Below are positions 44,859-61,871 of a stretch of 64,000 nt of DNA, piece by piece. A model generated the notes under the pieces. It searched no databases, had not been told where the DNA came from, and was given only the letters and a program-made list of their open reading frames with translations. Source of the stretch: Roseobacter insulae (lineage in GTDB: Bacteria; Pseudomonadota; Alphaproteobacteria; Rhodobacterales; Rhodobacteraceae). Position 1 is the first letter of the stretch. Each line of letters opens with the position of its first letter. The stretch lies in contig NZ_JAHXDN010000001.1 in assembly GCF_019375555.1 (NCBI RefSeq), positions 721,501 through 785,500 on the forward strand, read 5' to 3'. Position numbers and translations under genes: made by a program.

Positions 44859-46196
44859 ATGAAAAAATTTGCCATGGCGGCACTGGGGGGCACCCTTGCG
44901 GGCGTCATAGCCACGACCCAGATCGCAGGCCCGTTGCTGGCGCAGGAAGCGGCGAAATCGAGCAGCGTCTATGAGCAGCTGGATTTGTTCGGGGACATCT
45001 TCGAACGCATTCGGGCACAATATGTCGAAGAGGTCGAAGCCGGGGAACTCATCGAGGCGGCGATTGACGGGATGCTCACCTCGCTTGATCCGCACTCCAG
45101 TTACCTGTCGCCCGACGATGCGGCGCAGATGCGGGTTCAGACACGGGGCGAATTTGGCGGCCTTGGCATCGAGGTGACGCAGGAAGAGGGCTTCGTGAAA
45201 GTCGTCTCTCCCATCGACGGCACGCCTGCGGATGAGGCGGGCGTTGAGGCCGGTGATTTCATCACGCATGTCAATGGCGACTCGGTCTTGGGCCTGACCC
45301 TCGACGAAGCGGTCGAGATGATGCGCGGCCCGGTGGGCTCTGAAATTCTGATCACCATCGTGCGTGAGGGCGAGGCGGAACCCTTTGACATCTCGATTGT
45401 CCGCGACACCATCAAGCTGACGGCGGTGCGCACGCGGACCGAAGGCGATACGGTGGTTCTGCGGATCACAACCTTCAATGATCAGACGTACGGCAACCTC
45501 GAAGCCGGTCTGAAGGAACAGATCGAAGCCGCGGGTGGCATGGACAAGATCAACGGCATCGTCGTCGATCTGCGCAACAACCCCGGCGGCTTGCTGACGC
45601 AGGCGATCCGGGTCTCCGACGCTTTTCTGGATGAGGGCGAGATCGTCAGCACCCGGGGCCGCGAGATTCAGGATGGCGAGCGGTTTAACGCAACCGAGGG
45701 CGATCTGGCCGAGGGGAAGCCCATCGTGGTGCTGATCAACGGCGGATCCGCGTCGGCGTCTGAGATCGTCGCCGGGGCGCTTCAGGACCACCGCCGCGCG
45801 ATCGTCGTCGGAACCAAGAGTTTTGGCAAAGGGTCCGTGCAGACCGTGATGCCGCTGCGGGGTGATGGCGCGATGCGGCTGACCACAGCGCGGTATTACA
45901 CACCGTCGGGGCGGTCTATTCAGGCGTTGGGCGTTTCACCGGACATCGTTGTGCAACAGCCCCGTACCCGTCCCGGTGAGGAGGATGAAGACGAAACCCC
46001 TGCACGTCTTCGCAGGTCCGAAGCGGATTTGCGGGGCAGCCTGAACAATGACAGCCTGTCCGAAGACGAGATCAAACAGATCGAAGCGGACCGGGCTAAG
46101 GCCGAAGCCGCGGCGGCCTTGCGGGAGGAAGACTACCAGCTGGCTTATGCTATAGACATCCTGAAGGGGCTCAACGCTCTGGTGCCGGTAGAGTAG
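44859..46196 (+). CDS. ctpA: Carboxy-terminal processing protease CtpA (S41 family)
   Basis: A 445-residue periplasmic serine protease. It has a signal peptide ending near GPLLAQ, an N-terminal helical region, a PDZ domain (about residues 95-180, with GGLGIEVTQEEGFVKVVSPI), and the S41 catalytic core. The nucleophile is in the INGGSASASEIV segment (about 293-304) with the lysine in GTKSFGKGSVQT (about 318-329). It trims C-termini of exported and cell-wall-related proteins. It is last in the gpmI-envC-ctpA unit and followed at once by a terminator. Confidence 0.94.
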   Translation: MKKFAMAALGGTLAGVIATTQIAGPLLAQEAAKSSSVYEQLDLFGDIFERIRAQYVEEVEAGELIEAAIDGMLTSLDPHSSYLSPDDAAQMRVQTRGEFGGLGIEVTQEEGFVKVVSPIDGTPADEAGVEAGDFITHVNGDSVLGLTLDEAVEMMRGPVGSEILITIVREGEAEPFDISIVRDTIKLTAVRTRTEGDTVVLRITTFNDQTYGNLEAGLKEQIEAAGGMDKINGIVVDLRNNPGGLLTQAIRVSDAFLDEGEIVSTRGREIQDGERFNATEGDLAEGKPIVVLINGGSASASEIVAGALQDHRRAIVVGTKSFGKGSVQTVMPLRGDGAMRLTTARYYTPSGRSIQALGVSPDIVVQQPRTRPGEEDEDETPARLRRSEADLRGSLNNDSLSEDEIKQIEADRAKAEAAAALREEDYQLAYAIDILKGLNALVPVE

Positions 46197-46221
46197 TCAT
46201 TGCCTGCCCCGGGCAGACCGC

Positions 46222-46255
46222 AAAAAAGCCCCGCGTCACCACGCGGGGCTTTTTT
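46222..46255 (+). terminator. Strong intrinsic terminator after ctpA
   Basis: AAAAAAGCCCCGCG and CGCGGGGCTTTTTT are perfectly complementary around a 6-base loop, with six T residues at the end and a matching A-run on the other side. It ends the gpmI-envC-ctpA transcript 25 bp after the ctpA stop and, having A/T runs on both sides, could work in either direction. Confidence 0.95.
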
Positions 46256-46306
46256 GTGCCTGAACAGGACATCTGCAAGCGTGTCTGGCATTGATCTGTG
46301 ATATAT

Positions 46307-46321
46307 GTTCACGTATTGTTC
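46307..46321 (+). promoter_or_regulatory. Perfect alphaproteobacterial LexA-box match upstream of a GFA gene
   Basis: GTTC, seven bases, GTTC: an exact match to the alphaproteobacterial SOS box GTTC-N7-GTTC. It lies 39 bp upstream of the ATG of the GFA-family gene, in the promoter zone after the ctpA terminator. With eight fixed bases, about two chance matches are expected in 64 kb over both orientations, so position rather than the match itself makes it notable. Confidence 0.5.
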
Positions 46322-46360
46322 TATTCACGAAGCAATCACTTTTCCGGGAGAAACTGTCCG

Positions 46361-46756
46361 ATGATTAGCGCAAGCTGCTGCTGTGGAAAGATCAGGTTCG
46401 AACTCTTGGCGAAACCGACGATGATGGGAACCTGTCATTGCTCGCGATGCCGCAAGCTGGGAGCGAGTACATTCGTATTCATCAAGAAAGATGATTTGAA
46501 GTGGATAGAAGGCCGGGATCTCGTTCAGCTTTTCGCGCCGGTTGCGCCTTACAAATACGGGCGCTGCTTTTGCAAAACCTGTGGCACGTCGCTGGGTGAA
46601 ATCCTTTCGGAGGCGGAGAGCTTTCCGATCGCGGCCAACACCCTCGATGGGGATCTGGATCTGCAGAACCGCTTTCATGAGTTTGTCGCCGAAAAACCGG
46701 CATGGTCCCATATTTGTGACGATGCACAGCAGTTCGATGGCCATCCCGTCACGTAA
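46361..46756 (+). CDS. GFA (CENP-V/GFA) family zinc-binding protein
   Basis: A 131-residue protein of the glutathione-dependent formaldehyde-activating enzyme family. Zinc-ligand cysteines appear as ASCCCGKIRFEL (CxCG-type), TCHCSRCRKLGAS and CFCKTCGTSLGE. Most members outside true Gfa have unknown substrates. The start at 46361 has GGGAG upstream; the longer in-frame start at 46298 would run through the LexA-like box. It is a single-gene unit. Confidence 0.88.
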   Translation: MISASCCCGKIRFELLAKPTMMGTCHCSRCRKLGASTFVFIKKDDLKWIEGRDLVQLFAPVAPYKYGRCFCKTCGTSLGEILSEAESFPIAANTLDGDLDLQNRFHEFVAEKPAWSHICDDAQQFDGHPVT

Positions 46757-47296
46757 TCAGGTGCGGGCACGTCCTGTCGGGCGGTGCCGCGCGCGATCCC
46801 GCGCAAAGTCTCGGACCATGGGGGCGGCGGCGTGGGTTTGGTGCGGCGCATGGCGGCAGGCGCGGTCCCTCTGCACCGCAGCGCGGGCCTGCGTTCCGGC
46901 CTCAGCCCAACGGTCTCAGCCGCCTTCTCGGGCGGCGCCATCTCCTTTCCAACTCCGGATTTTGAGTTTCACTGAATACGTGTAAACTGAGGGGGCAAAA
47001 CATCGCCACAGTGCCGGGGAAGGAGGGGGGCCGTGTTTTTCTCAGTATTGGAACGTGAGACGCCCGAGAGACATTATTTTGAGACAAGCGATGGGCGATT
47101 AACGCCAGGTATCGCTGACCGTTCTCAGCTTGTGGCCCGCGTCATTCGGCGTGGCGACATCGTGAATGGTCAGAGGCATGACCGGGCCACCAGCTTTTTA
47201 TACCGCAACTTTTTAGCATCTACCGAGGTCTGAGACAGCGCGATGCACGTCCGCAAGCTGTCGACTCTCAGATCAATTGCAGAGGAGAATTTCAGA
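46757..47296. other. 540-bp region with no confident gene
   Basis: Between the GFA gene and the protease operon I see no well-supported gene. The first ~180 bp are very GC-rich with several reading frames of odd composition, and a hairpin (GCCGCC/GGCGGC) sits at about 46919-46936 with no T-run. From about 46960 onward the sequence is less GC-rich and holds a 66-codon frame with a strong ribosome site (47033-47233). It may hold remnants or the promoter of the protease operon. Confidence 0.4.
47033..47233 (+). CDS. Possible small protein upstream of the protease operon
   Basis: A 66-codon frame starting at GTG with AAGGAGG six bases ahead, which is an unusually good ribosome site. The product (MFFSVLERETPERHYFETSD onward) is charged and soluble, with no motif I recognise. 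The gap to the metzincin start is 63 bp. The ribosome site is the only real support; codon usage is not clearly that of a gene. Confidence 0.3.
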   Translation: MFFSVLERETPERHYFETSDGRLTPGIADRSQLVARVIRRGDIVNGQRHDRATSFLYRNFLASTEV

Positions 47297-48112
47297 GTGA
47301 CACCAAGTCTATGTTTGATCAGCCGTATGACGCGTGGGGCCATCTTGTGTCTTGCGGCCACAAGCCTGTCTGCGCAGGAATCCAAGATCCTGAACGATAT
47401 CGACTGGAACGAAAAGACCGAAGGCAGTCTGTTCTCGGTCCCGTCTGGTAATGAGGCCCCCGAAATCGGTGCCTCCGGTGACACCGAACTCTTTTATGGC
47501 ACGCTGACGGCAGAGCAGGAGGCCAATATCGTCGATAAGGCCTTTCCCCTGATGGCGGCAAAGTGGCCACAAAACTATGCCACCGAGGGGATATTCGTGT
47601 GCTGGGAGGATTTTGACGAGGCCCATGAACACGACCGGAAGGTGGTGCGTGATGCCGTTGCGCAAAGCTGGGAAAAGCACTCCGCGCTGACGTTCATTGG
47701 CTGGGACGAATGCGTTGACGGCCAGGAGGGTATTCGGATCGGCGTCGAGGACAGCAACCCGAGGGTCCGGTATCTGGGAAAGAAGGTGAACGGCGTTCCC
47801 CGCGGGATGATCCTGAACTTCACATATGGATTTTTCAGCCCGACCTGTGCACAGGAGGATTTGAAAGATCAGTGCACCAAAATGATTGCCGTGCACGAGT
47901 TTGGCCATGCAATCGGCTTTGCCCACGAGCAGAACCGGCACGACACCCCGGAAGAATGCACCAAGAAACCGCAGGGTACGAAAGGCGATACGATGCTGAC
48001 GCCCTGGGATAAGGACTCGGTCATGAACTACTGCAATCCGGTTCAAATGGGGAACGGAAAGCTCAGCGAGCTTGATATCCTCGCGGTGCAGTACATCTAC
48101 GGGAAGGATTAG
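47297..48112 (+). CDS. Exported metzincin-type zinc metalloprotease
   Basis: A 271-residue exported protease. GTG start with GAGGAG nine bases ahead, then a signal peptide (MTPSLCLISRMTRGAILCLA) with a likely cut near SAQ. The zinc motif is VHEFGHAIGFAHEQNR: ligands H200, H204 and H210, catalytic E201, and the Met-turn SVMNYC with M243. Extra cysteines around the active site suggest disulfides. No propeptide cysteine switch is evident. It is the first gene of a three-gene operon (4-bp gap to the serine protease) whose third gene carries a dead copy of this same domain. Substrate unknown. Confidence 0.85.
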   Translation: MTPSLCLISRMTRGAILCLAATSLSAQESKILNDIDWNEKTEGSLFSVPSGNEAPEIGASGDTELFYGTLTAEQEANIVDKAFPLMAAKWPQNYATEGIFVCWEDFDEAHEHDRKVVRDAVAQSWEKHSALTFIGWDECVDGQEGIRIGVEDSNPRVRYLGKKVNGVPRGMILNFTYGFFSPTCAQEDLKDQCTKMIAVHEFGHAIGFAHEQNRHDTPEECTKKPQGTKGDTMLTPWDKDSVMNYCNPVQMGNGKLSELDILAVQYIYGKD

Positions 48113-48116
48113 AAAG

Positions 48117-49415
48117 ATGGGCACTTTCGCGAAACTTGTCTTGCTGGTGGCACTTTTGGTGGTTGGTACATCAGGCGCATCGCGCGCCGAACCGCATGAG
48201 ATCGCCCGCCCTTCGCTGATATTCATCGAAACCAAGGGCACCGCGCAGATCGGCCCCAATGCGAAACTGAAGGATGAAATCCAAACGCAGGCAACCGGGT
48301 TTGTGATCACCGACGACGGGTTCATCCTGACCTCGCATCACCTGCTGGACGAGCATATCAAATTCCAAAGCCTGCGGCTGTCGATTACCGGTGTGCAGGC
48401 TGACTATGATGGCGACAGGTTGAACCTGACCGTGGTCGAGGCAAACCCGTTCATGGACCTTGTTCTGCTCAAAGCGCGGCTGCCGCACGGGGAAACGCTG
48501 ACCCCAATGAAGCTTGGCAACGGCGCGGAAAACCTGACGCCCTCGACGAAGCTTTACACATCGGGCTTTCCCGGACCGACCTACCAGCCCGACGATGGCT
48601 ATTTCGTCGATGACCAGGGAACCACGCCGCACCTCAAGCAGGTGAAGTTTTCGGTGGAAAACGGCCAGAGTGGCAGCCCGGTGTATCTGGAGGACGGCAC
48701 TGTTATCGGGGTGGTGAAAGGGTCTTTGAAAAACTCGGATACCGGTGCGGTCATTCCGCAAAAGTCGGTGTTTGTCCCGATCGAGCTTGCCGCCTCGCTG
48801 ACCAGCCACATCCGGCTGAAAGAGTTGGAACAACGCAATCGCGAGCTTTCCGCAGCAATTGAGTGGCTCAAAAAGGCCGTTGGTGACATGGGGGATGATA
48901 TCCCGGAGGGCGGAGACGCACATTCGCGCATCGGCACGGTGGAGGATCACATCGAAGCGGTCGCCAGCAATTTCAACTGGAATGCCGAAATTGATGACAG
49001 GGGCGATTTGCGGATCGAATACCGCAAGCTGTTGGGCGGCGAGATTCAGATTGAGAACATCGGGTTGCTGGTGACGCCGCTATATAACCAATTTGCCTAT
49101 GATGCGTCGCTGGACAAGGAAGCGGTTTCACCTATCGAGTTGCCGCCCCTGATCGCGAATACAAAGAAAGAAAGCTGGTTCACGAGAAAAGAAATACTGG
49201 ACAAGGATCGCAGGGGTGTTTTCATCATCGACACATTTCGGGAAAAGCTGAACAAGAAGCTCGCCGAGGAAACCATAAAGGCCGTTCCCAAAGGTACGGC
49301 AAAAGTGGTGTCCGTGGATGTCACGATCGTACCCTTCACGGAACCGCAACAGGAACGGGGAGCGCCCGTGACACTAGCCATTACCTGCGAATTGTCGGAG
49401 TGCCTGAACAAATGA
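48117..49415 (+). CDS. Exported trypsin-like serine protease
   Basis: A 432-residue protein. A signal peptide (MGTFAKLVLLVALLVVGTSG) is followed by a trypsin-like peptidase domain with H74 in FILTSHHLLDE, D114 in NPFMDLVLLKA and S185 in ENGQSGSPVYLEDG. The triad looks complete, with GQSGSP in place of the usual GNSGGP. After the protease come a short coiled coil (about 232-256, LKELEQRNRELSAAIEWLKK) and a ~170-residue C-terminal domain of unknown fold with no PDZ, unlike DegP-type proteases. It is 4 bp after the metzincin gene and overlaps the third gene by 4 bp (ATGA). Confidence 0.85.
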   Translation: MGTFAKLVLLVALLVVGTSGASRAEPHEIARPSLIFIETKGTAQIGPNAKLKDEIQTQATGFVITDDGFILTSHHLLDEHIKFQSLRLSITGVQADYDGDRLNLTVVEANPFMDLVLLKARLPHGETLTPMKLGNGAENLTPSTKLYTSGFPGPTYQPDDGYFVDDQGTTPHLKQVKFSVENGQSGSPVYLEDGTVIGVVKGSLKNSDTGAVIPQKSVFVPIELAASLTSHIRLKELEQRNRELSAAIEWLKKAVGDMGDDIPEGGDAHSRIGTVEDHIEAVASNFNWNAEIDDRGDLRIEYRKLLGGEIQIENIGLLVTPLYNQFAYDASLDKEAVSPIELPPLIANTKKESWFTRKEILDKDRRGVFIIDTFREKLNKKLAEETIKAVPKGTAKVVSVDVTIVPFTEPQQERGAPVTLAITCELSECLNK

Positions 49416-51397
49416 AACATCTCATCATTTTTTGCGCCGCTCTTGTGACCTGGCTGGCCTTGCCAGCCGCGGGATATGCCCAGTCGGTATCGAAATTCCA
49501 GGCCGCGCCTGCGCCGCTTGCCTTGACTGACACGTGGAGTGTTTCCGGCCCGCTTCAGTACGTTGGGTTCATCGATGATGGCGAGCATTATTTCACCTAT
49601 CTGGGTGATGAAAGGTCCGGACTGCTGCAAGTCTGGCGCCTGCCGGAAGTTGATGATGAGCCACGCGATATCGTACCCGAACTCGTGGCGGATCAGGTGA
49701 TTGACAGTGGGCGTGTCGTCGACATCCAGACCGTTGACGATTTACTGTTGGTGCTCAGCAGCACGTTCGAAGGGCAGGCCAAACTGGAAGTCTTCAACCG
49801 CAACCTTGACCTGATCGATGTCGGAAAGATGGCGGTTGTCGGCACGCCGCTCTTCAGCACAACGACTATCGAACGCAATATGCTCATAAGCTATGCCAAT
49901 GACTACGAGGCGGGACTGATCATCCTGCGGCCGTTTGAAGGTATGCAAAGAGCGGGTGCATACCGCCTTGTCGGCGCAGTGGGTAAAGCATGGGAACACC
50001 CGGCTTATGACAATTTTTTTGTCAATGTGTTGGGCGGATCGCAGCTTGTCGCCTATCCCAAACGAGGCGGGCGAACCGCTGTTCATGGCTATGAAAGTGG
50101 TTTTTCCAGTTCTCTGCCCAGTCTGCATTTTGCCGTCGACGGGCGCCATCTGACCGGCGAGTGTGACAGTGTGGGGGTTTTTTACGACAGCCCGTTTATC
50201 GTGGCCGACTACAGCCAGGGAACAATCACCGCCGTGACATTCAGCGAATTCTTCGAGCAGTTCGAGATCAAGTCGCTGGTGCAAAAACGGGCACTGGCGA
50301 GCAGGTCTGTGACCATCGACAGGTACGAAGGGGTCCGATACTCTCGAACGCCTATGCGGGTCTCCGCGAGTTGCGACCGTGCGCGCATTCTGGTCACGTC
50401 AAATAACGCGCGCGAGGTTTTGCAGCTGTCCTACAATGCCGGCTTCGAAGTTCTCGACAGTCTGCCATCGGTGGAAGTGCCTTTTGCGCCTAATCTGCTT
50501 GCGATATCGCACACCGGGAACCGGGCGCTGGTCGCCACCAGCCGGACCGGAGAGATTGCGCTTCTGGAGCCGCGCGGCACAGCCGACCCGCAGATCGCGA
50601 CATTACCGGACAGGGGACCGGCGGTGCGCGACCTGCAGCGCGTGCTGGCATCGCTTGGATACTCCGTCGGTGCGATTGATGGTCTGATGGGGCAACGCAC
50701 CGAAGCGGCAATCCAGCAGTTGGAAGGCGATCTCGGAGTAAAGCTGTCACGGGACGATTTCGGCGAACTGGCGACGTTCATCGAAGCAATTGCAGTGGGG
50801 ATCACGCAACGCAGTTCCTCCACGAGCGAAAGCTTTTTGACCCGAATGTGGCTGCAGGACACCATTCCCGTATGTTGGGAAAATCCCAGTCCCGAACATC
50901 AACCGGCAATGGATCTTGTTCGCAAATCGGTCAGCGACAGCTGGGAAGCACACTCCCGGATCACGTTTGTCGGGTGGTCGAAATGCACGAGCACGGCGAG
51001 TGGTGTCCGAATTACCATCGAGGATTCGGGGCCTTGGACGAGAAGCCTTGGCAGACGGCTCGCGGGTCTTGAAAGTGGCGTCGTCCTGAACCTGACCTTT
51101 GAAGAGCATGCAACGGGATGCAAGGCTCACCCGGAGACATGCATCCGCGGTTTCGCTGTCTATGAATTCGGCAAAGTGCTGGGGTTCGTCCTTGAAAACA
51201 GCCGGCCGGACACACCGTTGGATTGTGATCTTCCGCGTGGCGGACACAGTGATTTCTTCTTCCTGGGGTTTCCATATGACCCGGAGTCGGTGATGAACCT
51301 CTGCAATCCGAAGTTTGCAAATCGCGGTGTTCTCAGTGAGGGAGACAAGCAGAAGCTGAGTTTTGTTTACGGCGATCAACGACTTCCGCTCGAGTAG
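49412..51397 (+). CDS. Exported propeller-like, peptidoglycan-binding and pseudo-metzincin protein
   Basis: A 661-residue exported protein. The signal peptide is MKHLIIFCAALVTWLALPAA, ending near GYAQ. Residues about 40-390 form repeating beta-rich units that read like a propeller. Residues about 400-445 (RGPAVRDLQRVLASLGYSVG, then DGLMGQRTEAAI) are a peptidoglycan-binding type 1 motif. Residues about 487-661 are a paralogue of the metzincin two genes upstream, sharing PVCWE, the SWE.HS.ITF.GW block, VLNLTF, SVMNLCNP and the YG near the end. The zinc motif has become YEFGKVLGFVLE: all three His ligands are lost (Y584, K588, L594) while the Glu remains, so it cannot bind zinc in the usual way. 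It is coupled to the serine protease gene. Confidence 0.82.
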   Translation: MKHLIIFCAALVTWLALPAAGYAQSVSKFQAAPAPLALTDTWSVSGPLQYVGFIDDGEHYFTYLGDERSGLLQVWRLPEVDDEPRDIVPELVADQVIDSGRVVDIQTVDDLLLVLSSTFEGQAKLEVFNRNLDLIDVGKMAVVGTPLFSTTTIERNMLISYANDYEAGLIILRPFEGMQRAGAYRLVGAVGKAWEHPAYDNFFVNVLGGSQLVAYPKRGGRTAVHGYESGFSSSLPSLHFAVDGRHLTGECDSVGVFYDSPFIVADYSQGTITAVTFSEFFEQFEIKSLVQKRALASRSVTIDRYEGVRYSRTPMRVSASCDRARILVTSNNAREVLQLSYNAGFEVLDSLPSVEVPFAPNLLAISHTGNRALVATSRTGEIALLEPRGTADPQIATLPDRGPAVRDLQRVLASLGYSVGAIDGLMGQRTEAAIQQLEGDLGVKLSRDDFGELATFIEAIAVGITQRSSSTSESFLTRMWLQDTIPVCWENPSPEHQPAMDLVRKSVSDSWEAHSRITFVGWSKCTSTASGVRITIEDSGPWTRSLGRRLAGLESGVVLNLTFEEHATGCKAHPETCIRGFAVYEFGKVLGFVLENSRPDTPLDCDLPRGGHSDFFFLGFPYDPESVMNLCNPKFANRGVLSEGDKQKLSFVYGDQRLPLE

Positions 51398-51616
51398 TTC
51401 TGACGGCTCTGGCGATTGACGGATCGTTCGCCTTGTGTCCGGAGGGGGGCGCCGTTGCCCGGATGGCGGGTTAGCGGTTCCCATGGTCTTGACGCTTCGA
51501 TCGTCTGCAAGGCGCTGGTTCAGCGAAGATACGGTGAGATGCCCGGGATGTGACCAGAACGGCGACATCACAGTGCGTTGGCGGCGCGCGAGTTGCGTGA
51601 CCGCCTTGGCCGCTGT

Positions 51617-52390
51617 CTACAGGATGCCGCGGTCCCTGAGGTGCGGCACGAAGGTTCGCCCGATTGGCACGAGGCTGCCGTCAGACATAACAAAACCGGG
51701 GCGACCGCGGATGCGCTTGGATCCGGTGACAGCGTGCAGGGCTATCCAGTGCGATCTGTGAACCTGTGCGCCTGTGACCGGTGCGGTCTCTGCCATGGCA
51801 TCCCGGAACCGCATGGGGAGCAGCGTTGTGCCCTTGTCAGTGACGACCTCCACGTAGTGATCCTGCGCGGAAATGCGGATCAACGTGCCGCGTTTTGCCC
51901 CGGGAAGCCGTTTTATCAAACCGGATTCGCGCGGAAGGGCGGTTTGCGCGCCGGTGCCTTCCACGATGGAAAAAAGACATGACAGGCAGAGTATGACAAG
52001 CGTGCACTGTCCGTAGATAGTTGCGGCATCAACACTGGTCGGGGACAAGCCGAACGCACGCGCAATGCCCAGGACAATCGCGCAGATCGGAATGCCCGCA
52101 AGCGCGGTACACACGGGCAATCGCCAGACCTTGGCCGCCGGGCCGGGCAGGAGCCGCTCGACGCTTACAATCGCGAGGTATCCGACAGGCGCCGTAAGCC
52201 CAACAATCACGGCCCAATAGGCATAGCGTTCGACCGTTGCGAGCGCTGAATAGGTCCCGAACGGACCGAAGAATCCTGCCATGAACGCCGCCAGCGCCAG
52301 TATCGTGAGGCATTTCCGTGAGCTGAAGACCTCCCGGACCTCGCGCATGGCCGGAACCGCTGCCGTGTCGTTCACGAAGCCTGATGGCAT
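51617..52390 (-). CDS. Membrane-anchored LytTR family transcriptional regulator
   Basis: A 257-residue protein with four membrane segments in its N-terminal half (TILALAAFMAGFFGPFGTYS, YAYWAVIVGLTAPVGYLAIV, PVCTALAGIPICAIVLGIAR, GQCTLVILCLSCLFSIV). A LytTR DNA-binding domain follows, from about residue 155 (RISAQDHYVEVVTDKGTTLL, then QVHRSHWIALHAV). Such proteins control transcription from the membrane, often in response to signals or a partner. The ATG at 52390 has AAGGAGG ten bases ahead; ATGs at 52399 and 52438 fit less well. It is convergent with the protease operon and divergent from the Ntn-hydrolase gene. Confidence 0.85.
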   Translation of the reverse strand: MPSGFVNDTAAVPAMREVREVFSSRKCLTILALAAFMAGFFGPFGTYSALATVERYAYWAVIVGLTAPVGYLAIVSVERLLPGPAAKVWRLPVCTALAGIPICAIVLGIARAFGLSPTSVDAATIYGQCTLVILCLSCLFSIVEGTGAQTALPRESGLIKRLPGAKRGTLIRISAQDHYVEVVTDKGTTLLPMRFRDAMAETAPVTGAQVHRSHWIALHAVTGSKRIRGRPGFVMSDGSLVPIGRTFVPHLRDRGIL

Positions 52391-52477
52391 TTCGCGCATT
52401 CCTCCTTGCGTTCGGATGGGACGATCCTCCAATCGCACCCGGTTGAATTCGATACTACCAGAAAAATGGAGCGTTCG

Positions 52478-53575
52478 ATGGGTTTGGTGGGATTTTTGAC
52501 GAAGCGGTCAAGGCGTCAGCCTGCAATGGCAACGGTTGGCTTTATCTTATGCGCGTCCGGCGCCATCGCATGTACGACGATCGCGCTTGGCAGGCCGGAT
52601 GCAAAACTGGTGGCCTACAGCTATGACGTCGCGGGACGCGGCGTGGGTCATCTGATCGTCAATCCGTCAGATGTGTCGCGCGTGTCCATCATGGACGGGA
52701 AGGTGGCCGCGTGGCAGGCACGGTATGGCAGCGTGACATTTAACCAGATCGGGCCGGGCATGCCGACCGCCGGTATGAACACGGCAGGTCTGGTGGTCAC
52801 GCTGATGTGGAATGATACCGTCACCTACCCGCGCGGTGTGTCCGGGCAGATCGTCAACGAACTTGAGTTCATTCAGCGACTGCTCGATGTCAACGACACC
52901 GTCGACGCGGCGCTGCGGTCTTTGTCGGCGGTGCGTATCGAGGGTCTGGTGCCCCTGCATTTTTTTCTGGCGGACCGAAGCGGTGCGACTGCGGTTGTTG
53001 AACCCACCGCAAATGGATTCCTGCATTATTCCTCGACCAGCCTGCCAGTCCCGGCGCTGACCAACACCTCTTATTCCGACCTGATCAGGCTCGGCGACCA
53101 AGAAGAAGTTATGGGGGGTGAGCCCGGCGCGTCCGGATCGACAGCAGGTGCAGAGCCGACAAGCCTTGAACGATTTGCGATTGCGACGCGGGCCATCCTC
53201 GCTTCGGGCGACACCGTTGGTCCTGAGGAAGCTTTTGGCGTGCTTCAAGAGGTGGAGAATTCGGAAACGCGCTGGCAGATCGTTTTCGATCCCGGGGCGG
53301 CGGAAATTCATTTTCGACACGCAGGCCGCTTGCAGACCCAGGTCATTGAAATGACGAGTTTGGATTTCGATTGCCGCGACATGCCGCTCAGCCTGAACCT
53401 CAGCGACAGCGATGGGGCCGCGATACCATCGCGATTGACGCCACTGACCTCAGATGCGCTCTCCCCCGTTCTGGGCGAGGTGCTGGCCGGGTTTTCTGAT
53501 GTCATCGGAATCGGGCCTGAAGTGGCCGATGGTCTGGCGATGGGATTGCTACAGTCAGCGACCTGCATTGACTGA
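52478..53575 (+). CDS. Exported Ntn-hydrolase, choloylglycine / penicillin V acylase-like
   Basis: A 365-residue linear amide C-N hydrolase. The nucleophile C32 follows a signal-peptide-like N-terminus (MATVGFILCASGAIACTTIA), so cleavage would expose it, as these enzymes need. Other active-site-type residues visible are Asp in YSYDVAG, Asn in AGMNTAGLVVTLMWND and Asn in LTNTSYSD. Relatives cleave bile salts, penicillin V or N-acyl homoserine lactones; the substrate here is open. ATG 52478 has GGAG six bases ahead (52466 is the alternative). It is divergent from the LytTR gene with an 87-bp gap, suggesting it may be that regulator's target. Confidence 0.82.
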   Translation: MGLVGFLTKRSRRQPAMATVGFILCASGAIACTTIALGRPDAKLVAYSYDVAGRGVGHLIVNPSDVSRVSIMDGKVAAWQARYGSVTFNQIGPGMPTAGMNTAGLVVTLMWNDTVTYPRGVSGQIVNELEFIQRLLDVNDTVDAALRSLSAVRIEGLVPLHFFLADRSGATAVVEPTANGFLHYSSTSLPVPALTNTSYSDLIRLGDQEEVMGGEPGASGSTAGAEPTSLERFAIATRAILASGDTVGPEEAFGVLQEVENSETRWQIVFDPGAAEIHFRHAGRLQTQVIEMTSLDFDCRDMPLSLNLSDSDGAAIPSRLTPLTSDALSPVLGEVLAGFSDVIGIGPEVADGLAMGLLQSATCID

Positions 53576-53693
53576 GATTGCAGGCTGTGGCGACGGGCAG
53601 CTTTTGGCATTGAATGCCTGGCGCTCACCCGCGTGTTTCTGATCCGGTTGGTATCTGTCGACAGACGGAGTTCAAGGGGATGACATTTTCCAC

Positions 53694-53722
53694 TTGCCAG
53701 CAATGGAACGTTCCAGTAGTAA
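53694..53722 (+). promoter_or_regulatory. Predicted promoter of the plus-strand catabolic operon
   Basis: TTGCCA at 53694-53699 and TAGTAA at 53717-53722 are separated by 17 bp, a good sigma-70-type spacing. One operator palindrome lies inside the spacer and the second starts right after the -10 box. The boxes are only 4 to 5 of 6 matches, so this is a prediction supported mainly by the operator geometry. Confidence 0.5.
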
Positions 53723-53736
53723 TTGGAACGTTCCAA
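53704..53736. promoter_or_regulatory. Paired perfect operator palindromes
   Basis: TGGAACGTTCCA occurs perfectly at 53704-53715 and again at 53724-53735, the second extended to the 14-bp TTGGAACGTTCCAA (53723-53736). Centres are 20 bp apart, about two helical turns. A central CG in a short palindrome is typical of LacI-family operators. They differ from the sites at 13148-13193, so a different regulator, probably encoded past the right edge, is expected. Confidence 0.7.
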
Positions 53737-53749
53737 ATGGAGTGGGATT

Positions 53750-54754
53750 GTGAACTGGATTTTCGTAGGTGCCAGCACCATCGCGGCGCAGCACATGATC
53801 GGCGCCGTCAGGGCGCAATCGGGTCACGATGTGTCATGGATTGTCAGTGGCTCCGCGAGCCGTGTCTCACGCTGGGCAGGTGATCATGGCATCAGCAACG
53901 CGACCAGTGAGCTGTCGGAGGCCCTGGCCGATGACAGCGCCAGCGCGGTTTACATTTCGTCGACAAATGAGAAACACTTTGCGCAGGCCATGGCGGCGAT
54001 TTCCGCGGGCAAGCATGTTCTGTGCGAGAAACCTTTGGCGCTCACGCCGACAGAGGCAGCCGAAATGGTAAAGGCTGCCAAGAATGCGGGTGTGGTTTTT
54101 GGCACCAACCATCACCTGCGTTGTTCCGGCTCACACCGCAAGGTGCGTGATCTGATCTCGTCAGGTCGGATTGGAAAGGTGCTGTCGTTGAGGCTGTTTC
54201 ATGCCGTTCACCTGCCGGAAAACCTGCAGGGCTGGCGGATCAATGATGCGTCCGCCGGTGGCGGCGTGATCCCGGACATCACCGTGCATGACGCGGATGT
54301 GGCGCGTTTCCTGCTGGGAGAAGACCCTCAGGACGTTGTCGCGCAGATGGTGTCGTCCGGCATGGGACGCGGCGTCGAGGATTCCGCCATGTCTGTGTGG
54401 TCAATGCCCTCTGGCGCCATGGTCATGTCTCACGAAAGTTTCACCCATCCCTTTGCCGGCAGCGGGTTGGAGGTGCACGGCGATGCGGGGTCGGTTTTTG
54501 CGACCGGGGTGATGACGCAGGAGCCTGTCGGCACCGTGGAGCTGGTTACTGCCAGCGGGCGCGAGGCAATCGCCTTTTCGGGCCATTCTCTCTACGCACA
54601 GGGTGTCGCCGAGTTTGTCGAGGCGATGTCCGGCACGGAGCGCCCGGCAGCGGACGGGGTTGACGGGATCAAGTCTCTGGCCGTTGCTCTTGCCGTTCGG
54701 CAGGCCGCACAGACCGGCACCCGCGTCGAGATCACCTACGGAGAGTTCGCGTGA
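53750..54754 (+). CDS. Gfo/Idh/MocA family oxidoreductase
   Basis: A 334-residue NAD(P)-dependent dehydrogenase. The Rossmann start is WIFVGASTIAAQHMIGAVR, the signature CEKPLALTPTEA is at about residue 95, and the catalytic region GGGVIPDITVHDADVARFLL has the Asp and His expected. The GTG at 53750 is seven bases after GGAG; an ATG at 53723 lies inside the operator. First gene of the operon, overlapping the CoA-transferase gene by 4 bp (GTGA). It probably oxidises a sugar, polyol or cyclitol taken up by the transporter encoded downstream. Confidence 0.85.
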   Translation: MNWIFVGASTIAAQHMIGAVRAQSGHDVSWIVSGSASRVSRWAGDHGISNATSELSEALADDSASAVYISSTNEKHFAQAMAAISAGKHVLCEKPLALTPTEAAEMVKAAKNAGVVFGTNHHLRCSGSHRKVRDLISSGRIGKVLSLRLFHAVHLPENLQGWRINDASAGGGVIPDITVHDADVARFLLGEDPQDVVAQMVSSGMGRGVEDSAMSVWSMPSGAMVMSHESFTHPFAGSGLEVHGDAGSVFATGVMTQEPVGTVELVTASGREAIAFSGHSLYAQGVAEFVEAMSGTERPAADGVDGIKSLAVALAVRQAAQTGTRVEITYGEFA

Positions 54755-56322
54755 CGAAGGTTGTGTCTCCGGCCGAGGCGGTATCGCGCATACCGGATGA
54801 TGCGGTTCTGACCGTGTCGTCGTCGTCGTCGCTGGGCTGCCCCGATCTGGTGCTGAAGGCGATAGGAGAGCGCTTCGAGAACGAGGCGCATCCGCGCAAC
54901 ATTACCTCGCTGCATCCGATTGCGGCCGGCGACATGTACGGTGTCAGGGGCATGGATTACCTTGCCAAGGACGGGCTGCTGACCCGGGTGCTCGCGGGCT
55001 CTTACCCGTCGGGTCCCTCTCACCTTGAGATGCCCGAGATTTGGCGGATGATCGTCGAGGACCGTGTCGCGGCCTACAATGTGCCGTCCGGTATCATGTT
55101 CGACATGCATCGTGAAGCGGCGGCGCACCGTCCGGGCGTGCTGACACAGGTCGGGATGGAAACCTTTGTTGATCCGCAGCGTCAGGGCTGCGCGATGAAC
55201 AGCCGTGGTGCCGCCGCGCCGATTGTGTCGCGCGTGCGTTTTGCCGGGGACACATGGCTGCATTTCCCGAATGTCGTGCCAACGGTCTGCATCCTGCGGG
55301 CCACGACAGCGGATGAGCGTGGTAACCTCACCTATGAACATGAGGGCGCGTACCTTGGCGGGCTGGAGCAGGCCATTTGCGTGCGAAACAACGGTGGTCT
55401 GATCATCGCCCAGGTAGAGCGCGTCACGGCGACGGGCAGCCTGCGCCCCCACGATGTACATGTGCCCGGCCATCTGGTCGATCTGGTGGTCATCGACCGC
55501 GATCAGAAGCAAACCTGCGAAACCCGGTACGATCCGGCCATTTCAGGTCAGGTGATGCGCCCCTGGGACAGCTTTTCGCATGCCGAACATGGTGTCGAAA
55601 AGACCATCGCCAGACGGTCCGCGCAGGAGTTGCGCGCCGGGATGACGGCCAATCTTGGTTTTGGGATCAGCGCGATGGTGCCACGCATCCTGCTGGAAGA
55701 AGGCCACCCGGACGCCGTGACCTGGACGATCGAGCAGGGTGCTGTCGGGGGCGTGCCGCTGACCGGTTTCGCCTTCGGCTGCGCGTCCAACGCAGATGCG
55801 TTTGTTCCGTCGCCGCAGCAGTTCATCTACTTTCAGGGGGCGGGTTTTGACCTATCCTTTCTGTCCTTTCTGGAAGTCGACATCCAAGGCAACGTCAATG
55901 TCTCCAAGCTTGGCAAGAAACCGTATCTCACGGCAGGCTGTGGGGGGTTTGTGGATATCACCGCGCGCGCGCGGAAAATCGTCTTTTCCGGCTGGTTCGA
56001 GGCGGGTGCCGAGATCGAGATGACGGAAGAGGGCATCAAGGTCGCGAAACCCGGTCGCTTTACCAAGATGGTTGAGCAGGTGGAACACGTGACCTTTTCG
56101 GGCGACAGGGCCCGCGCGCAGGGGCAGGATGTTCTCTATGTCACCGAACGCTGCGTGATCCGGTTGACCGAGCACGGGTTGGTCGCGACCGAAATCATGC
56201 CCGGCATCGACGCGCAGGTTGACATCGTCGGCGCATCCGGCGGTCGGGTGACAGTCGCCGAAAATGCGGTGCCCATGCCCGCATCGCTGTTGTCAAAAAG
56301 CCCGATGGGACTGACGTTATGA
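54751..56322 (+). CDS. Acyl-CoA:acetate/3-ketoacid CoA-transferase (YdiF-type, fused subunits)
   Basis: A 523-residue class I CoA-transferase with alpha- and beta-type halves in one chain. The catalytic glutamate is in WTIEQGAVGGVPLTGFAFG at about residue 330, inside the second half, and the first half has VSSSSSLGCPDLVLKAI and GNLTYEHEG. It would move CoA onto an organic acid produced in this pathway. Starts at a GTG overlapping the previous stop and is coupled by ATGA to the enoyl-CoA hydratase gene. The acid is unknown. Confidence 0.87.
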   Translation: MTKVVSPAEAVSRIPDDAVLTVSSSSSLGCPDLVLKAIGERFENEAHPRNITSLHPIAAGDMYGVRGMDYLAKDGLLTRVLAGSYPSGPSHLEMPEIWRMIVEDRVAAYNVPSGIMFDMHREAAAHRPGVLTQVGMETFVDPQRQGCAMNSRGAAAPIVSRVRFAGDTWLHFPNVVPTVCILRATTADERGNLTYEHEGAYLGGLEQAICVRNNGGLIIAQVERVTATGSLRPHDVHVPGHLVDLVVIDRDQKQTCETRYDPAISGQVMRPWDSFSHAEHGVEKTIARRSAQELRAGMTANLGFGISAMVPRILLEEGHPDAVTWTIEQGAVGGVPLTGFAFGCASNADAFVPSPQQFIYFQGAGFDLSFLSFLEVDIQGNVNVSKLGKKPYLTAGCGGFVDITARARKIVFSGWFEAGAEIEMTEEGIKVAKPGRFTKMVEQVEHVTFSGDRARAQGQDVLYVTERCVIRLTEHGLVATEIMPGIDAQVDIVGASGGRVTVAENAVPMPASLLSKSPMGLTL

Positions 56323-57086
56323 GTGATGTGACGCTTCGCAAGCAAGGATCTGTCGTTGTGCTTACCTTGCAAAATCCCGACAAGCTCAACACCTTGACGC
56401 TGCCGATGCTGGAGGCGTTGGAAGGTCATCTGACCGCGATTGAACGCGATACATCGGTGCGCTGTGTCCTGGTCACCGGAACAGGTGATCGCGCCTTTTG
56501 CTGCGGTGCCGATATTGCCGCCTGGGGACATCTGACGCCTGCCGAGTTTGCACGCCATTGGGTCCGTGACGGGCATCGGATATTCGATCGGCTAGCGCGG
56601 CTGTCACAGCCCACAATTGCCGTGCTCAACGGACATGCGTTTGGCGGTGGGCTGGAATTGGCCTGTGCCTGCGACATCCGCGTCATGGCGCCGCAAGCAA
56701 CGCTGGCCTTGCCCGAAGCACATGTCGGTATCGTGCAGGGGTGGTCCGGGACGCAGCGCGCGGTGCGGCTCTTTCCCGAACCCGTGGTGAAGGAAATGGC
56801 TCTGTTCGGGCGGCGCATCCCGGCTGCCCGTGCCGCATCTTTCGGATTTATCGCCGAGGTCGCCGACAATTACATGGAGCGGGCCACGGAAATTGCAGAG
56901 GCATTGACCGGGCTGTCGCCGCGCGCCACGGAGGTGTCGAAGTACATGATACATGCGGCGACCGGTGAAGACAGGGCCGCAATGGTTGAGGCCCTGGGCA
57001 GTGCGGCGGTTGCTGGCAGCGCCGACCGGCAAGAGGGTGTGGCGGCATTCCTCGACAAGCGCCAACCCAGGTTCTCGGGACAATGA
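56319..57086 (+). CDS. Enoyl-CoA hydratase/isomerase (crotonase family)
   Basis: A 255-residue crotonase. Oxyanion-hole residues appear in AFCCGADIAAWG and GHAFGGGLELACACDI. Both catalytic glutamates of hydratases are present: one in GGLELACAC and one in LALPEAHVGIVQGW, so it can probably hydrate an enoyl-CoA or act as a lyase. It follows the CoA-transferase with a 4-bp overlap and precedes the aldehyde dehydrogenase with another, so the three should work in sequence. Confidence 0.88.
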   Translation: MSDVTLRKQGSVVVLTLQNPDKLNTLTLPMLEALEGHLTAIERDTSVRCVLVTGTGDRAFCCGADIAAWGHLTPAEFARHWVRDGHRIFDRLARLSQPTIAVLNGHAFGGGLELACACDIRVMAPQATLALPEAHVGIVQGWSGTQRAVRLFPEPVVKEMALFGRRIPAARAASFGFIAEVADNYMERATEIAEALTGLSPRATEVSKYMIHAATGEDRAAMVEALGSAAVAGSADRQEGVAAFLDKRQPRFSGQ

Positions 57087-58642
57087 CGATGAAGGAAATG
57101 ACGATTAACGCCGCAGTGCCTGTGGACATGCCCCCGCCATTCGAAGGGCGGCATCTGATTGACGGTGCATGGAAGGCGAGCGCGGATGGCGCGATGTTCG
57201 AGCGGATGTCGCCGTCGCATGGCGTGGTGGTCAGCCGGTCCGCTCTCGGCGGGGTGCCTGAAGCCCAAGCTGCAATCGGCGCGGCAAAGCGTGCGTTCGC
57301 AGCTGGTGCATGGAGCCGTATTTCCGGTCAGCAACGTGCCGGTATCCTGCTGAGGGTCGCAGAGCTGATCGAATCCAATGTCGAACGGATCGCTCTTCTT
57401 GAAACGCTTGAAAGCGGCAAGCCGATCAGCCAGTCGAGAGGTGAGGTATCCGGCGCTGCGGATTTGTGGCGCTATGCTGCATCGCTGGCGCGGTCCACTC
57501 ATGGCGACAGCCACAACACGCTGGGCGACGACATGCTGGGCGTGGTTCTCAAGGAGCCGATCGGCGTTGTGTCGATCATCACGCCCTGGAACTTTCCGTT
57601 CTGGATATTGAGCCAGAAACTGCCGTTTGCCCTCGCCGCCGGATGCACGGTTGTGGTCAAGCCATCAGAAATGACGCCCTCTTCGACCGTGATGATGGGC
57701 GAACTTTTGATGGAGGCGGGCCTGCCCGCAGGTGTGTGTAACATCGTTTTGGGGCATGGACAGCCGGTGGGCAGCACCTTGTCTACCCATGAAGATGTGG
57801 ACATGGTGACCTTCACTGGGTCCACGGCCGTTGGCAAGATGATCACCCAAGCCGCCTCGGGCACATTGAAGAAGGTGGCGCTGGAACTGGGCGGTAAGAA
57901 TGCGCAGGTGATTTTCCCCGACGCCAATCTTGAAGACGCCGCCGATGCGGTGGTTTTCGGGGTCTATTTCAACGTCGGCCAGTGTTGCAATTCTTCCAGC
58001 CGGATCCTCGTGCACGAGGATATCGCGGACTCGTTTGTCGAGCGGATCGTCGCCTTGTCGCGCGATGTGGCGTTTGGCGACCCGCTCGATCCGGAAACGC
58101 AGGTCGGGGCGATCGTCACGCCGGAGCATAACAGCAAGATCCACGCCTATGTGGCGGATGCCGCTGCCGCGGGCGCAGTGGTTGTGCTTGGCGGTGCCCC
58201 GATGGATGTGCCCGGGCTTGGAGACCAGTTCTATCAACCGACCATCATCAGCGGCGTCACGGCGGACATGCCCATTGCGCGGGAGGAAGTCTTTGGGCCG
58301 GTGCTGGTGGTTCAGACGTTCCGCACCCTGCCAGAAGCGATAGAGCTGACCAACGCCACGGAGTTTGGCCTCTCGGCAGGTGTCTGGAGCGAGAACGTGC
58401 ATACCTGTCTAGCATTTGCCAAAGCGGCACAGACCGGTACAGTTTGGACAAACACATGGATGGACGGTTACCCGGAATTGGCGTTTGGAGGCATGAAACA
58501 ATCTGGCCAGGGACGTGAAATTGGCCACTACGGGTTCGAAGAATTCCTTGAGGTGAAATCGGTTGTGATGCGCATCGGGCGCACGCGGACCTCTTGGGTG
58601 AAAACACGCGACGAAACGCGTGAAGACATTGTTACGCAATAA
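57083..58642 (+). CDS. Aldehyde dehydrogenase
   Basis: A 519-residue NAD(P)-dependent aldehyde dehydrogenase. The substrate-handling Asn is in [12 protein letters not shown] (N170), catalytic Glu E268 in [11 protein letters not shown], and the nucleophile C301/C302 in [13 protein letters not shown], with [10 protein letters not shown] further on. It is of betaine/aminobutyraldehyde-like length with an N-terminal extension of about 20 residues. It oxidises an aldehyde to an acid, which the CoA-transferase could activate. Coupled by ATGA to the hydratase gene. Confidence 0.9.
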
Positions 58643-58655
58643 GGGAGGAAACCAA

Positions 58656-59906
58656 ATGCGTGCATTTCCAAAGACAAAGGCAACAGTTGTTGCTGCCTTG
58701 ATGACATCGGCAACCATGGTTGCGGCGGATGACGTTGAAGTTCTGCACTGGTGGACATCGGGTGGTGAAGCGGCCGCCCTGAACGTCCTGAAGCAAGATC
58801 TGGAAGGTCAGGGCATCGGCTGGACGGACATGCCGGTTGCCGGTGGCGGCGGGGAGCAGGCGATGACTGTTCTGCGTGCCCGGGTAACCGCCGGCAATGC
58901 GCCGACGGCGGTGCAGGGGCTGGGGTTTGACATTCTGGACTGGGGCAAGGAAGGCGCCCTGGCCGATCTGAACGAGGTCGCGGCCAAGGAAGGCTGGGAC
59001 GAGGTGGTGCCGGATGCTCTCAAGGCTTTTGCCAAGGTCGATGGCAAGTGGGTATCTGCACCCGTGAACGTGCATTCCACCAACTGGGTCTGGGCGAACA
59101 AATCCGTTCTGGACGCCAACGGCATCGCGGTGCCGACGTCATGGGAAGACTTCACCGCCGCTCTTGAGACGCTGAAGGCGGCCGGGATCACTCCGATCGC
59201 ACATGGTGGGCAGGCGTGGCAGGAAGCGACCGTCTTCGATGCGGTTGCGATGTCGGTGCTGGGCCCGGATGGCTACAAGGCGGCCTTCGTCGATCTGGAT
59301 GAGGCAACCCTCGGATCGGACGCAATGAAGGAGGCCTTCGACCGCATGGCGGTGATCCGCGCCAACGTGGATGACAATTTCTCGGGCCGTGACTGGAACC
59401 TTGCCACCGCGATGGTGATCAACGGCGAGGCTGGTTTCCAGATGATGGGTGACTGGGCCAAGGGCGAATTCCTGAATGCCGGGAAAGTGCCGGGCGAGGA
59501 CTTCCTGTGCTTCAGGTTCCCCGGTACCGCCGATCAGGTCACATTCAACGCCGACCAGTTCATGATGTTCGATCAGGGTGGCCCGGTTTCAGCAGAGCAG
59601 GCGGCGCTGGCCTCTGCAATCCTGTCTCCGTCCTTCCAGTCGGCGTTCAACGTGGTCAAGGGCTCTGTGCCAGCGCGCACCGATGTCAGCGATGCTGACT
59701 TCGACGCCTGTGGCAAACAGGGGATGAAAGACCTTGCTGCCGCGGCCGCATCGGGCAACCTCTTCGGCTCGATGGCACACGGGCATGCTGCCCCGGCATC
59801 GGTCAAGAACGCCATTTATGACGTGGTCACCGCGCATTTCAACGGCGAATTCGACAGCGAAACAGCTGTTGATGAACTCGTCGATGCGGTGTCGATCGCC
59901 AAGTAA
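58656..59906 (+). CDS. Carbohydrate ABC transporter substrate-binding protein (CUT1)
   Basis: A 416-residue periplasmic binding protein with signal peptide [20 protein letters not shown] followed by MVAADD. The body starts [18 protein letters not shown], similar to glucose/mannose-type binding proteins of the GtsA group. AAGGGAGGA stands just ahead of the ATG at 58656, which is preferred over a longer frame from 58620 overlapping the ALDH gene. Ligand is unknown; the similarity favours a hexose-sized compound or glycoside. Confidence 0.9.
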
Positions 59907-59913
59907 TCCTCCC

Positions 59914-59942
59914 GGCGGGGCGGTACGTTGCATCGCCCCGCC
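59914..59942 (+). repeat. Perfect hairpin between binding-protein and permease genes
   Basis: GGCGGGGCG (59914-59922) and CGCCCCGCC (59934-59942) pair over 9 bp with an 11-base loop, just after the binding-protein stop. No T-run follows. The same layout, a hairpin directly after the binding-protein gene, occurs in the importer operon at 11690-11747. It fits differential mRNA stability that yields excess binding protein. Confidence 0.65.
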
Positions 59943-59993
59943 ACCCCGCGTCCCACGCGAAACGATCAAAACGGCTCATGAGGAGGGCGCGTT

Positions 59994-60887
59994 ATGGCGC
60001 ATTCGGCCAACGCGGATTTCAAGACACGTCTACAGAACTGGATCCCCAAGCTGGTGTTGTCGCCCTCGGTGGCCATGATGCTGGTGTTCGTCTACGGGTT
60101 CATTCTGTTTTCAGTCTACCTGTCATTTACCGACAGCCGCCTCCTGCCCAGCTTTGGATGGGTGGGCCTGGAAAACTACTCCAAGCTCTGGCGTCTGAGC
60201 CACTGGGAAGTTTCCATCAAGAACATGGGAATTTTCGCGGCCCTCTACATCGTGATCTGCACCACCATCGGCCTTGGGCTTGCCATTTTTCTCGATCAGA
60301 AAATCCGCGGCGAGGGTCTGCTGCGCCCCATCTACCTTTATCCCATGGCGCTCAGCTTCATCGTGACCGGCACCGCATGGAAATGGTTTCTGGACCCCGG
60401 CATCGGGCTGGAAAATGTCATGCACTCATGGGGATGGGAAAGCTTTGAATTCAGGTGGATCAAGGACAGGAATTACGCCATCTACACCGTTGTGCTGGCC
60501 GCCGTGTGGCAAACCAGCGGGTTCGTGATGGCCATGTTCCTTGCCGGTTTGCGCGGCATAGATAACGAAATTCTGAAAGCGGCCCAGATGGACGGGGCCA
60601 GCAACTGGAACCTCTATCGCCGGATCATTATCCCACAATTGCGGCCCGCCTTCCTGTCGGCCTTCGTGATCCTGTCGCATCTGGCGATCAAGACCTTCGA
60701 CCTTGTGATCGCATTGACGGGCGGCGGGCCGGGGCGCGCAACGGAGCTGCCGGCGACCTTCATGTATTCCTACACGTTTTCCCGCAACCAGATGGGCATC
60801 GGTGCGGCCTCGGCCACGATCATGCTGATGACAATCGCCGCCATCATGATCCCTTACCTCTACTCTGAACTGCGGGAGAAGCGCTGA
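59994..60887 (+). CDS. Sugar ABC transporter permease (MalF/GtsB type)
   Basis: A 297-residue CUT1 permease with six hydrophobic segments (first: PSVAMMLVFVYGFILFSVYL). The coupling motif is ILKAAQMDGASNWNLYRRII near residue 200 and the GGGPGRAT loop is present. GAGGAGGG precedes the ATG. It overlaps the next permease gene by one base (TGATG), so the two are translated together. Confidence 0.92.
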   Translation: MAHSANADFKTRLQNWIPKLVLSPSVAMMLVFVYGFILFSVYLSFTDSRLLPSFGWVGLENYSKLWRLSHWEVSIKNMGIFAALYIVICTTIGLGLAIFLDQKIRGEGLLRPIYLYPMALSFIVTGTAWKWFLDPGIGLENVMHSWGWESFEFRWIKDRNYAIYTVVLAAVWQTSGFVMAMFLAGLRGIDNEILKAAQMDGASNWNLYRRIIIPQLRPAFLSAFVILSHLAIKTFDLVIALTGGGPGRATELPATFMYSYTFSRNQMGIGAASATIMLMTIAAIMIPYLYSELREKR

Positions 60888-61768
60888 TGTCCGTAGCGTC
60901 TCAAGATACCGCCATCCGCACGGGCCGCATCACCCGCACATTGATCTACGTCGTGCTGATCCTGTTCGCCCTGTTTTACATGCTGCCGCTTTACGTGATG
61001 CTGGTCAATTCGGTGAAACCGTTGTCGGAGATCACCGGCGGCGGCATGATGAATCTGCCAGAAGAGTTCACGCTGGAGCCTTGGTTCAAGGCATGGTCCT
61101 CGGCGCAGATCGGGGTGGAGCCGACAGGGCTGGCGCCCTATTTCTGGAATTCGATCAAAATGGTCGTGCCCGCCGTGGCCGTCTCCACCGTTCTGGGCGC
61201 GCTGAACGGCTACGTGCTGACCAAGTGGCGTTTCAAATACGACACCATCCTGTTCGGGCTGATGCTATTTGCCTGTTTCATCCCGTTCCAGATCGTGCTG
61301 ATCCCGATGGCGCGCATGCTGGGCCTGATGGGGCTTGCGGGGACGACATGGGGGCTGGCGCTGGTGCATGTCGTCTATGGCATCGGCTTCACGACCCTGT
61401 ATTTCCGCAACTACTACGCGGTTTTCCCGACCGAACTGATCCGGGCGGCACAGATCGATGGCGCGGGGTTTTTCCAGATATTCTGGCGCATCCTCCTGCC
61501 CTCCTCCGGACCCATCGCCGTGGTCTCGATCATCTGGCAATTCACCAACATCTGGAACGATTTCCTGTTTGGGGCGTCCTTTGCGGGCGCGGATAGCCAG
61601 CCGATGACCGTCGCTTTGAACAATCTCGTGCAGGCCTCGCATGGCGTGAAGGAATACAATGTTCACTTCGCTGGCGCGATCCTCGCGGCAACACCAACTC
61701 TGCTCGTCTACATCGTGGCTGGCCGATACTTCGTCCGCGGTCTGATGGCAGGCTCCGTGAAAGGGTGA
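60887..61768 (+). CDS. Sugar ABC transporter permease (MalG/GtsC type)
   Basis: A 293-residue CUT1 permease. Six hydrophobic segments begin with LIYVVLILFALFYMLPLYVM. The coupling motif is LIRAAQIDGAGFFQIFWRIL at about residue 186. It forms the channel with the preceding permease. The next recognised gene, the ATPase, starts 103 bp later, with only a very short frame in between. Confidence 0.92.
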   Translation: MSVASQDTAIRTGRITRTLIYVVLILFALFYMLPLYVMLVNSVKPLSEITGGGMMNLPEEFTLEPWFKAWSSAQIGVEPTGLAPYFWNSIKMVVPAVAVSTVLGALNGYVLTKWRFKYDTILFGLMLFACFIPFQIVLIPMARMLGLMGLAGTTWGLALVHVVYGIGFTTLYFRNYYAVFPTELIRAAQIDGAGFFQIFWRILLPSSGPIAVVSIIWQFTNIWNDFLFGASFAGADSQPMTVALNNLVQASHGVKEYNVHFAGAILAATPTLLVYIVAGRYFVRGLMAGSVKG

Positions 61769-61771
61769 GGG

Positions 61772-61867: not shown

Positions 61868-61871
61868 GACC

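Follow-up and report, generated by a model that had tools for sequence, protein, structure and literature searches.

The locus lies within a window of 64,000 nucleotides (the whole stretch of DNA that was analysed) from Roseobacter insulae, and it holds three genes that are all read from the forward strand. Gene 1 (47297-48112, +) encodes an astacin-like metzincin, assigned from its open reading frame, its Pfam matches and its hydrophobic N-terminus, and gene 2 (48117-49415, +) encodes a trypsin-like serine protease with the HtrA fold and a C-terminal region that is specific to the trio. Gene 3 (49412-51397, +) encodes a protein of 661 amino acids, the length given in the initial annotation, with a probable propeller, a peptidoglycan-binding motif and a pseudo-metzincin domain. 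The genes are as tightly coupled as had been claimed: the junction of genes 1 and 2 is +4 bp, and genes 2 and 3 share a 4-bp ATGA overlap. Gene 1 starts at a GTG codon with the Shine-Dalgarno sequence AGAGGAG at 47281-47287, and an alternative ATG is present at 47327. Scans for promoters and terminators gave no matches above the chance level. All three products have a hydrophobic stretch of the signal-peptide type at the N-terminus, in agreement with the signal peptides that were proposed earlier, and we infer that all three proteins are exported.

The first protein has the appearance of a working enzyme. Its zinc-binding motif HEFGHAIGFAHEQNR (HExxHxxGFxHE; 47894-47938, +) is the same in all five metzincins of the trio, and the alignment of relatives places the Met-turn SVMNY at 48017-48031 (+); the two motifs bear out the earlier description of a metzincin with an intact zinc motif. 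In Pfam the protein matches Astacin at 31.3 bits (cut-off 22.5), aligning residues 189-217 only (about 30 residues), and Peptidase_M10 at 25.2 bits (cut-off 24). Two features of family M12A can be found in it, namely the motif HExxHxxGxxHE, in which the third histidine is followed by the family glutamate, and a Met-turn SxMxY with the tyrosine that serves as the fifth ligand (here SVMNY). Between the signal peptide and the catalytic domain there is neither an FxGD aspartate switch nor a cysteine switch of the myroilysin type. The missing FxGD does not take the protein out of the astacin family, because myroilysin is also without it. Ahead of the catalytic core, at 47495-47557 (+), there is a segment conserved in all five trio metzincins with the motif F[IY]xxLTx[EQ]QExxIxD[KR]A[FY]PL, which the alignment shows neither in the pseudo-domain nor in the solitary relatives. 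This segment, with its invariant D[KR], is a possible pro-segment and activation site, and the invariant aspartate within it is a candidate for such a switch. Judging from its intact active-site residues, we take the gene 1 product to be an active-looking astacin-like metzincin.

The second protein matches Trypsin_2 in Pfam (E=1.2e-14), and the family alignment shows a triad of H75, D114 and S185 that is invariant across the relatives. The initial annotation had named D114 and S185 correctly and had placed the histidine at position 74, while the invariant one is H75. In a structure model of moderate confidence, the best Foldseek matches in the PDB are HtrA (HtrA1), DegP and DegS, with a probability of 1.00. 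A search for a PDZ domain in the protein gave no match, the NCBIfam models of HtrA, DegP and DegS score far below their cut-offs, and MamE gives a weak match (E=2.5e-5) that is also far below the cut-off. The protein is of the fold class of HtrA and is no DegP orthologue. Trypsin-activated astacins are known, and HtrA-type proteases need not have trypsin specificity. By analogy with the trypsin-activated astacins, it is plausible that the serine protease activates the metzincin of gene 1.

Gene 3 is a composite. Its part from 49502 to 50611 (+) is a probable beta-propeller by homology to four other gene 3 proteins, which have sub-threshold matches to Lactonase, a seven-bladed propeller (E 0.002-0.011). 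Profile searches of the PDB with the region give weak matches to lactonase and to the designed propeller protein SAKe, and the structure model reaches a pLDDT of 42 from an alignment with too few relatives, so that its fold is not usable. The propeller-like region that had been pointed out earlier is thus backed by homologues with Lactonase matches, on a basis that is weak since these matches are sub-threshold; an N-terminal propeller is probable on this weak evidence. The peptidoglycan-binding motif that follows (50612-50734, +; residues 401-441) matches PG_binding_1 at E=1.1e-7 and 32.3 bits (cut-off 23) with 41 of the 57 model positions aligned, as had been claimed, and the region also matches peptidoglycan-binding domains of lytic transglycosylases in the PDB. 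The motif is found in five out of five gene 3 proteins, of which one (that of G443, from another genus of the family) scores below the Pfam cut-off. Gene 3 encodes a fast-diverging protein that is predicted to bind peptidoglycan.

The remainder of gene 3 contains a pseudo-metzincin domain at 50864-51373 (+; residues 485-654) that was recognised by its homology to gene 1. The two align with 39% identity over 173 amino acids (E=4e-41), which confirms the proposed relationship and excludes chance as the source of the likeness. The counterpart of HExxHxxGFxHE in the domain is YEFGKVLGFVLE, where all three zinc histidines are replaced; in the degenerate motif YEFGKVLGFVLENSR (51161-51205, +) they have become Y, K and L, and the glutamate is kept. 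The loss of the ligands is established by this alignment, and it is selective. Among 13 active-looking relatives 32 positions are invariant; 28 of them are retained in the domain, and the losses are H190, H194, H200 and A195, the alanine being adjacent to one of the histidines. In other words, three of three zinc ligands are gone, as against one of the 29 remaining invariant positions, and the chance of finding the three histidines among four random losses is about 8e-4. All six cysteines are retained, as is the methionine of the Met-turn, with its tyrosine changed to leucine; at the variable columns the domain is identical to gene 1 at only 44 of 164. By alignment, the pattern is that of a fold kept and a metal site removed, although the same pattern could also arise soon after activity is lost. 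The residues suggest a metzincin pseudopeptidase, predicted to be inactive and free of zinc.

The origin of this domain is addressed with a tree of 15 rows of metzincin domains, in which it is not placed with gene 1. It had earlier been called a dead copy of gene 1: the zinc ligands are indeed lost, and descent as a copy of gene 1 is rejected, for forcing the two together costs 12.9 units of log-likelihood (AU p=0.0096), a result to be read with the caveat of a long branch. The test does not reject a place somewhere within the trio clade as a whole (p=0.126). The branch of the domain (2.12 vs a median of 0.67) is the longest among the well-aligned rows, and its exact place in the tree is unsure because of this length. 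From the alignment and the tree together, the domain is a dead paralogue of gene 1. The other four gene 3 proteins stop after the peptidoglycan-binding region, and the protein in the window is extended exactly there. Since those four are without the domain, it must have been added in this copy alone and at the native C-terminus, and the simplest account of it would be that a separate metzincin gene, lying downstream, became fused to gene 3. The GC3 of the domain (0.608) is the lowest of the operon.

We turn to the distribution of the trio, which occurs in five clusters from four genomes and two orders, always in the order metzincin, serine protease, and propeller and peptidoglycan-binding protein. 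The five are the cluster in the window, a second one elsewhere in this genome, on contig C14 (L005), one in G006 of the same genus, the one in G443, and one on plasmid pCB3126_1 of Sinorhizobium terangae. The trio is a genuine cassette, though a rare one. No paper describing it was found in the open-access literature (the only literature covered), as the initial annotation had supposed. The pseudo-domain is found in one cluster only, the present one, and the claim that a pseudoprotease is built into the operon does not hold, as four of the five clusters are without it; it follows that the domain is not essential to the cassette in general. With respect to co-occurrence, which had been suggested as a check, every cluster in which the gene 3 propeller or the gene 2 C-terminal region turned up contained all three genes, so that independent occurrence, named earlier as a refuting result, was not seen for genes 2 and 3 in the genomes searched; the metzincin also occurs alone.

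Among 395 genomes of the family a profile of the metzincin gives only two strong matches, and within the genus it is matched in two of 19. The propeller of gene 3 is found in none of 345 other genomes of the family, and the C-terminal region of gene 2 in none of 288 other genomes of the class; all these samples contain one genome per species, and the latter two apparently left out G443, so these absences are approximate. No relative appears in the viral contigs and phage records searched, and a pattern scan of the genome contigs, derived from the metzincin alignment, reached only the two known relatives. Trees of genes 2 and 3, with five sequences each, do not resolve and give no backing to inheritance of the trio as a unit. 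The metzincin is also seen in other company: Bradyrhizobium plasmids from peanut symbionts (L062:5881-9091) have a related metzincin beside a trypsin-like protease that is different and divergent, with a different third gene, an alpha/beta hydrolase of DUF900, so that another trio is formed around the same pair. Solitary relatives without genes 2 and 3 occur as well. In a Caballeronia protein (L066:5872-7635) a related metzincin is fused to a long C-terminal region, which has no Pfam match and looks repeat-like by eye. These varied partners indicate that the metzincin is the older and more widespread element and that its partners change.

The surroundings of the trio in the window fit an acquired segment. 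Its GC content is 55-57%, compared with about 60-64% in most neighbours, and synteny with five congeners ends just after ctpA, at about 46.19 kb; the low GC content and this break fit an acquisition of the trio. In the five congeners, none of the window genes of 46190-64000 turned up in the roughly 9 kb next to ctpA. Beside the trio are a membrane regulator of the LytTR type (51617-52438, -) and a choloylglycine-hydrolase-like protein (52469-53575, +), and no signs were found that either belongs to the trio. In the clusters of C14, G006 and G443 the operon continues with genes for a RoxA-like di-haem cytochrome and a cytochrome P450 (L005:1123-4185, L038:1485-4547, L044:680-3751). The clusters of the window and of Sinorhizobium have no such continuation.

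Combining these observations, we arrive at a model for the function of the locus. The cassette would be a horizontally mobile set of exported proteins encoded in one compact operon, in which the gene 3 protein may act at the cell wall as a dock for both proteases or for their substrate. Only in the present copy would a metzincin gene nearby have been joined in frame to gene 3 at its native end; the fused metzincin would then have lost its zinc ligands and retained its fold, leaving a tethered pseudo-metzincin. This domain may serve as a binding module that holds a substrate or a partner for the active metzincin; alternatively, it may compete with the active metzincin for the serine protease. 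Either binding mode would regulate the active protease pair. A regulatory role of the pseudo-domain is what we infer from its sequence. The initial annotation had proposed a wall-anchored scaffold, decoy or regulator for the metzincin, with activation or trimming by the serine protease; this proposal is supported in part, by the cassette and by the homology of the pseudo-domain to gene 1, and its anchoring, decoy or regulator function and activation would be predictions. To the reading as a whole, a wall-docked cassette of two proteases whose docking protein has gained a pseudo-metzincin, which by binding the active proteases or their substrate would regulate or direct them, we assign a probability of roughly 0.4. 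The narrower proposition, that the C-terminal domain of gene 3 is a working pseudopeptidase, tethered to the wall and controlling the active metzincin of its own operon, is more doubtful and is put forward tentatively. The fixed order of the trio, the selective loss of the zinc ligands and the fusion at the native end of gene 3 count for the reading as a whole, and the single example of the pseudo-domain, together with the four clusters that are without it, counts against it.

The strongest competitor, although we consider it somewhat unlikely, is that evolution has simply left the pseudo-domain behind as an inactive, decaying metzincin with no role of its own, the plain trio being the functional unit. 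The four other clusters do without the domain, one of them in the very same genome, and both the long branch and the low GC3 noted above would suit a sequence on its way out. A decaying sequence would hardly be expected to keep its frame open throughout, however, and the loss of every zinc ligand with the six cysteines and 28 of the 32 invariant positions kept is unlike unfocused decay, although activity lost only recently could leave the same picture. A role in binding without regulation has a still lower probability in our estimate. Here the trio would be a plain secreted set for nutrient scavenging or surface processing, anchored at the wall, and the pseudo-domain would bind a substrate (e.g., collagen or a glycoprotein) for targeting. 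In animals, inactive metallopeptidases of M12 and M14 serve chiefly as modules for binding or assembly (PMC11266112), and the Caballeronia protein, in which the same metzincin carries a long C-terminal region, points the same way; a regulatory and a targeting role, however, look alike in sequence.

Quite improbable, in our judgement, is a conflict or defence system, in which a protease cascade would use the inactive enzyme as a decoy. Trypsin-like proteases and enzyme versions without catalytic activity are described in conflict systems of prokaryotes (Kaur et al., PMC7159879), the trio is patchily distributed and in one case located on a plasmid, and protease models of PADLOC match gene 2. 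These matches cover the protease fold only, however, and those conflict systems have NTPases or GTPases at their core, combined with variable effectors, whereas none adjoins the trio. No phage or defence gene was seen beside it either, and the three products all look exported.

Returning to the reading of a wall-docked cassette with a regulating pseudo-metzincin, we compare it with known systems. What Roseobacter relatives and a Sinorhizobium plasmid have in common appears to be an undescribed cassette of exported proteases, and the trio without the dead domain in the same genome is a natural control for what the domain adds. With the astacins (M12A), including the bacterial myroilysin (PMC9848320), gene 1 shares HExxHxxGxxHE, the Met-turn with tyrosine and the signal peptide. 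It differs from them in a Pfam match of only ~30 residues, in having no FxGD and no pro-segment cysteine, in its six-cysteine core, and in its link to a serine protease and a peptidoglycan-binding protein. The pseudo-domain resembles the inactive ADAM pseudopeptidases (M12; PMC11266112), which have the metzincin fold, replaced zinc ligands and a retained methionine in the Met-turn. These act through binding, but they are animal membrane proteins with disintegrin domains and are related at the superfamily level only; the 2024 review of inactive metallopeptidases covers mostly eukaryotic examples.

Closer in arrangement are two bacterial systems in which an inactive relative controls an active protease. 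In Clostridioides difficile, CspB works with the pseudoproteases CspA and CspC (PMC6464247, PMC4619724), so that an active protease of the exported type is regulated by relatives without activity, and one of these is produced as a fusion. These are, however, subtilisin-like serine proteases of spores with no sequence relation to the trio, and their fusion joins the pseudoprotease with the active enzyme, whereas here it is joined to the peptidoglycan-binding partner. In the alphaproteobacterial Magnetospirillum, the active HtrA-type protease MamE has an inactive relative, MamO, that activates proteolysis (PMC4794232); MamO is of the serine class and itself binds metal, whereas the present domain belongs to the metzincins and no longer has its metal site. 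By analogy, the trio would work like CspB/CspA/CspC or MamE/MamO and would be a member of neither, both being of the serine type. The bacterial pseudoproteases that control an active relative in the literature compared here (CspA/CspC, MamO) are all serine-type, and the trio, if our reading is true, would be their bacterial counterpart among the zinc proteases.
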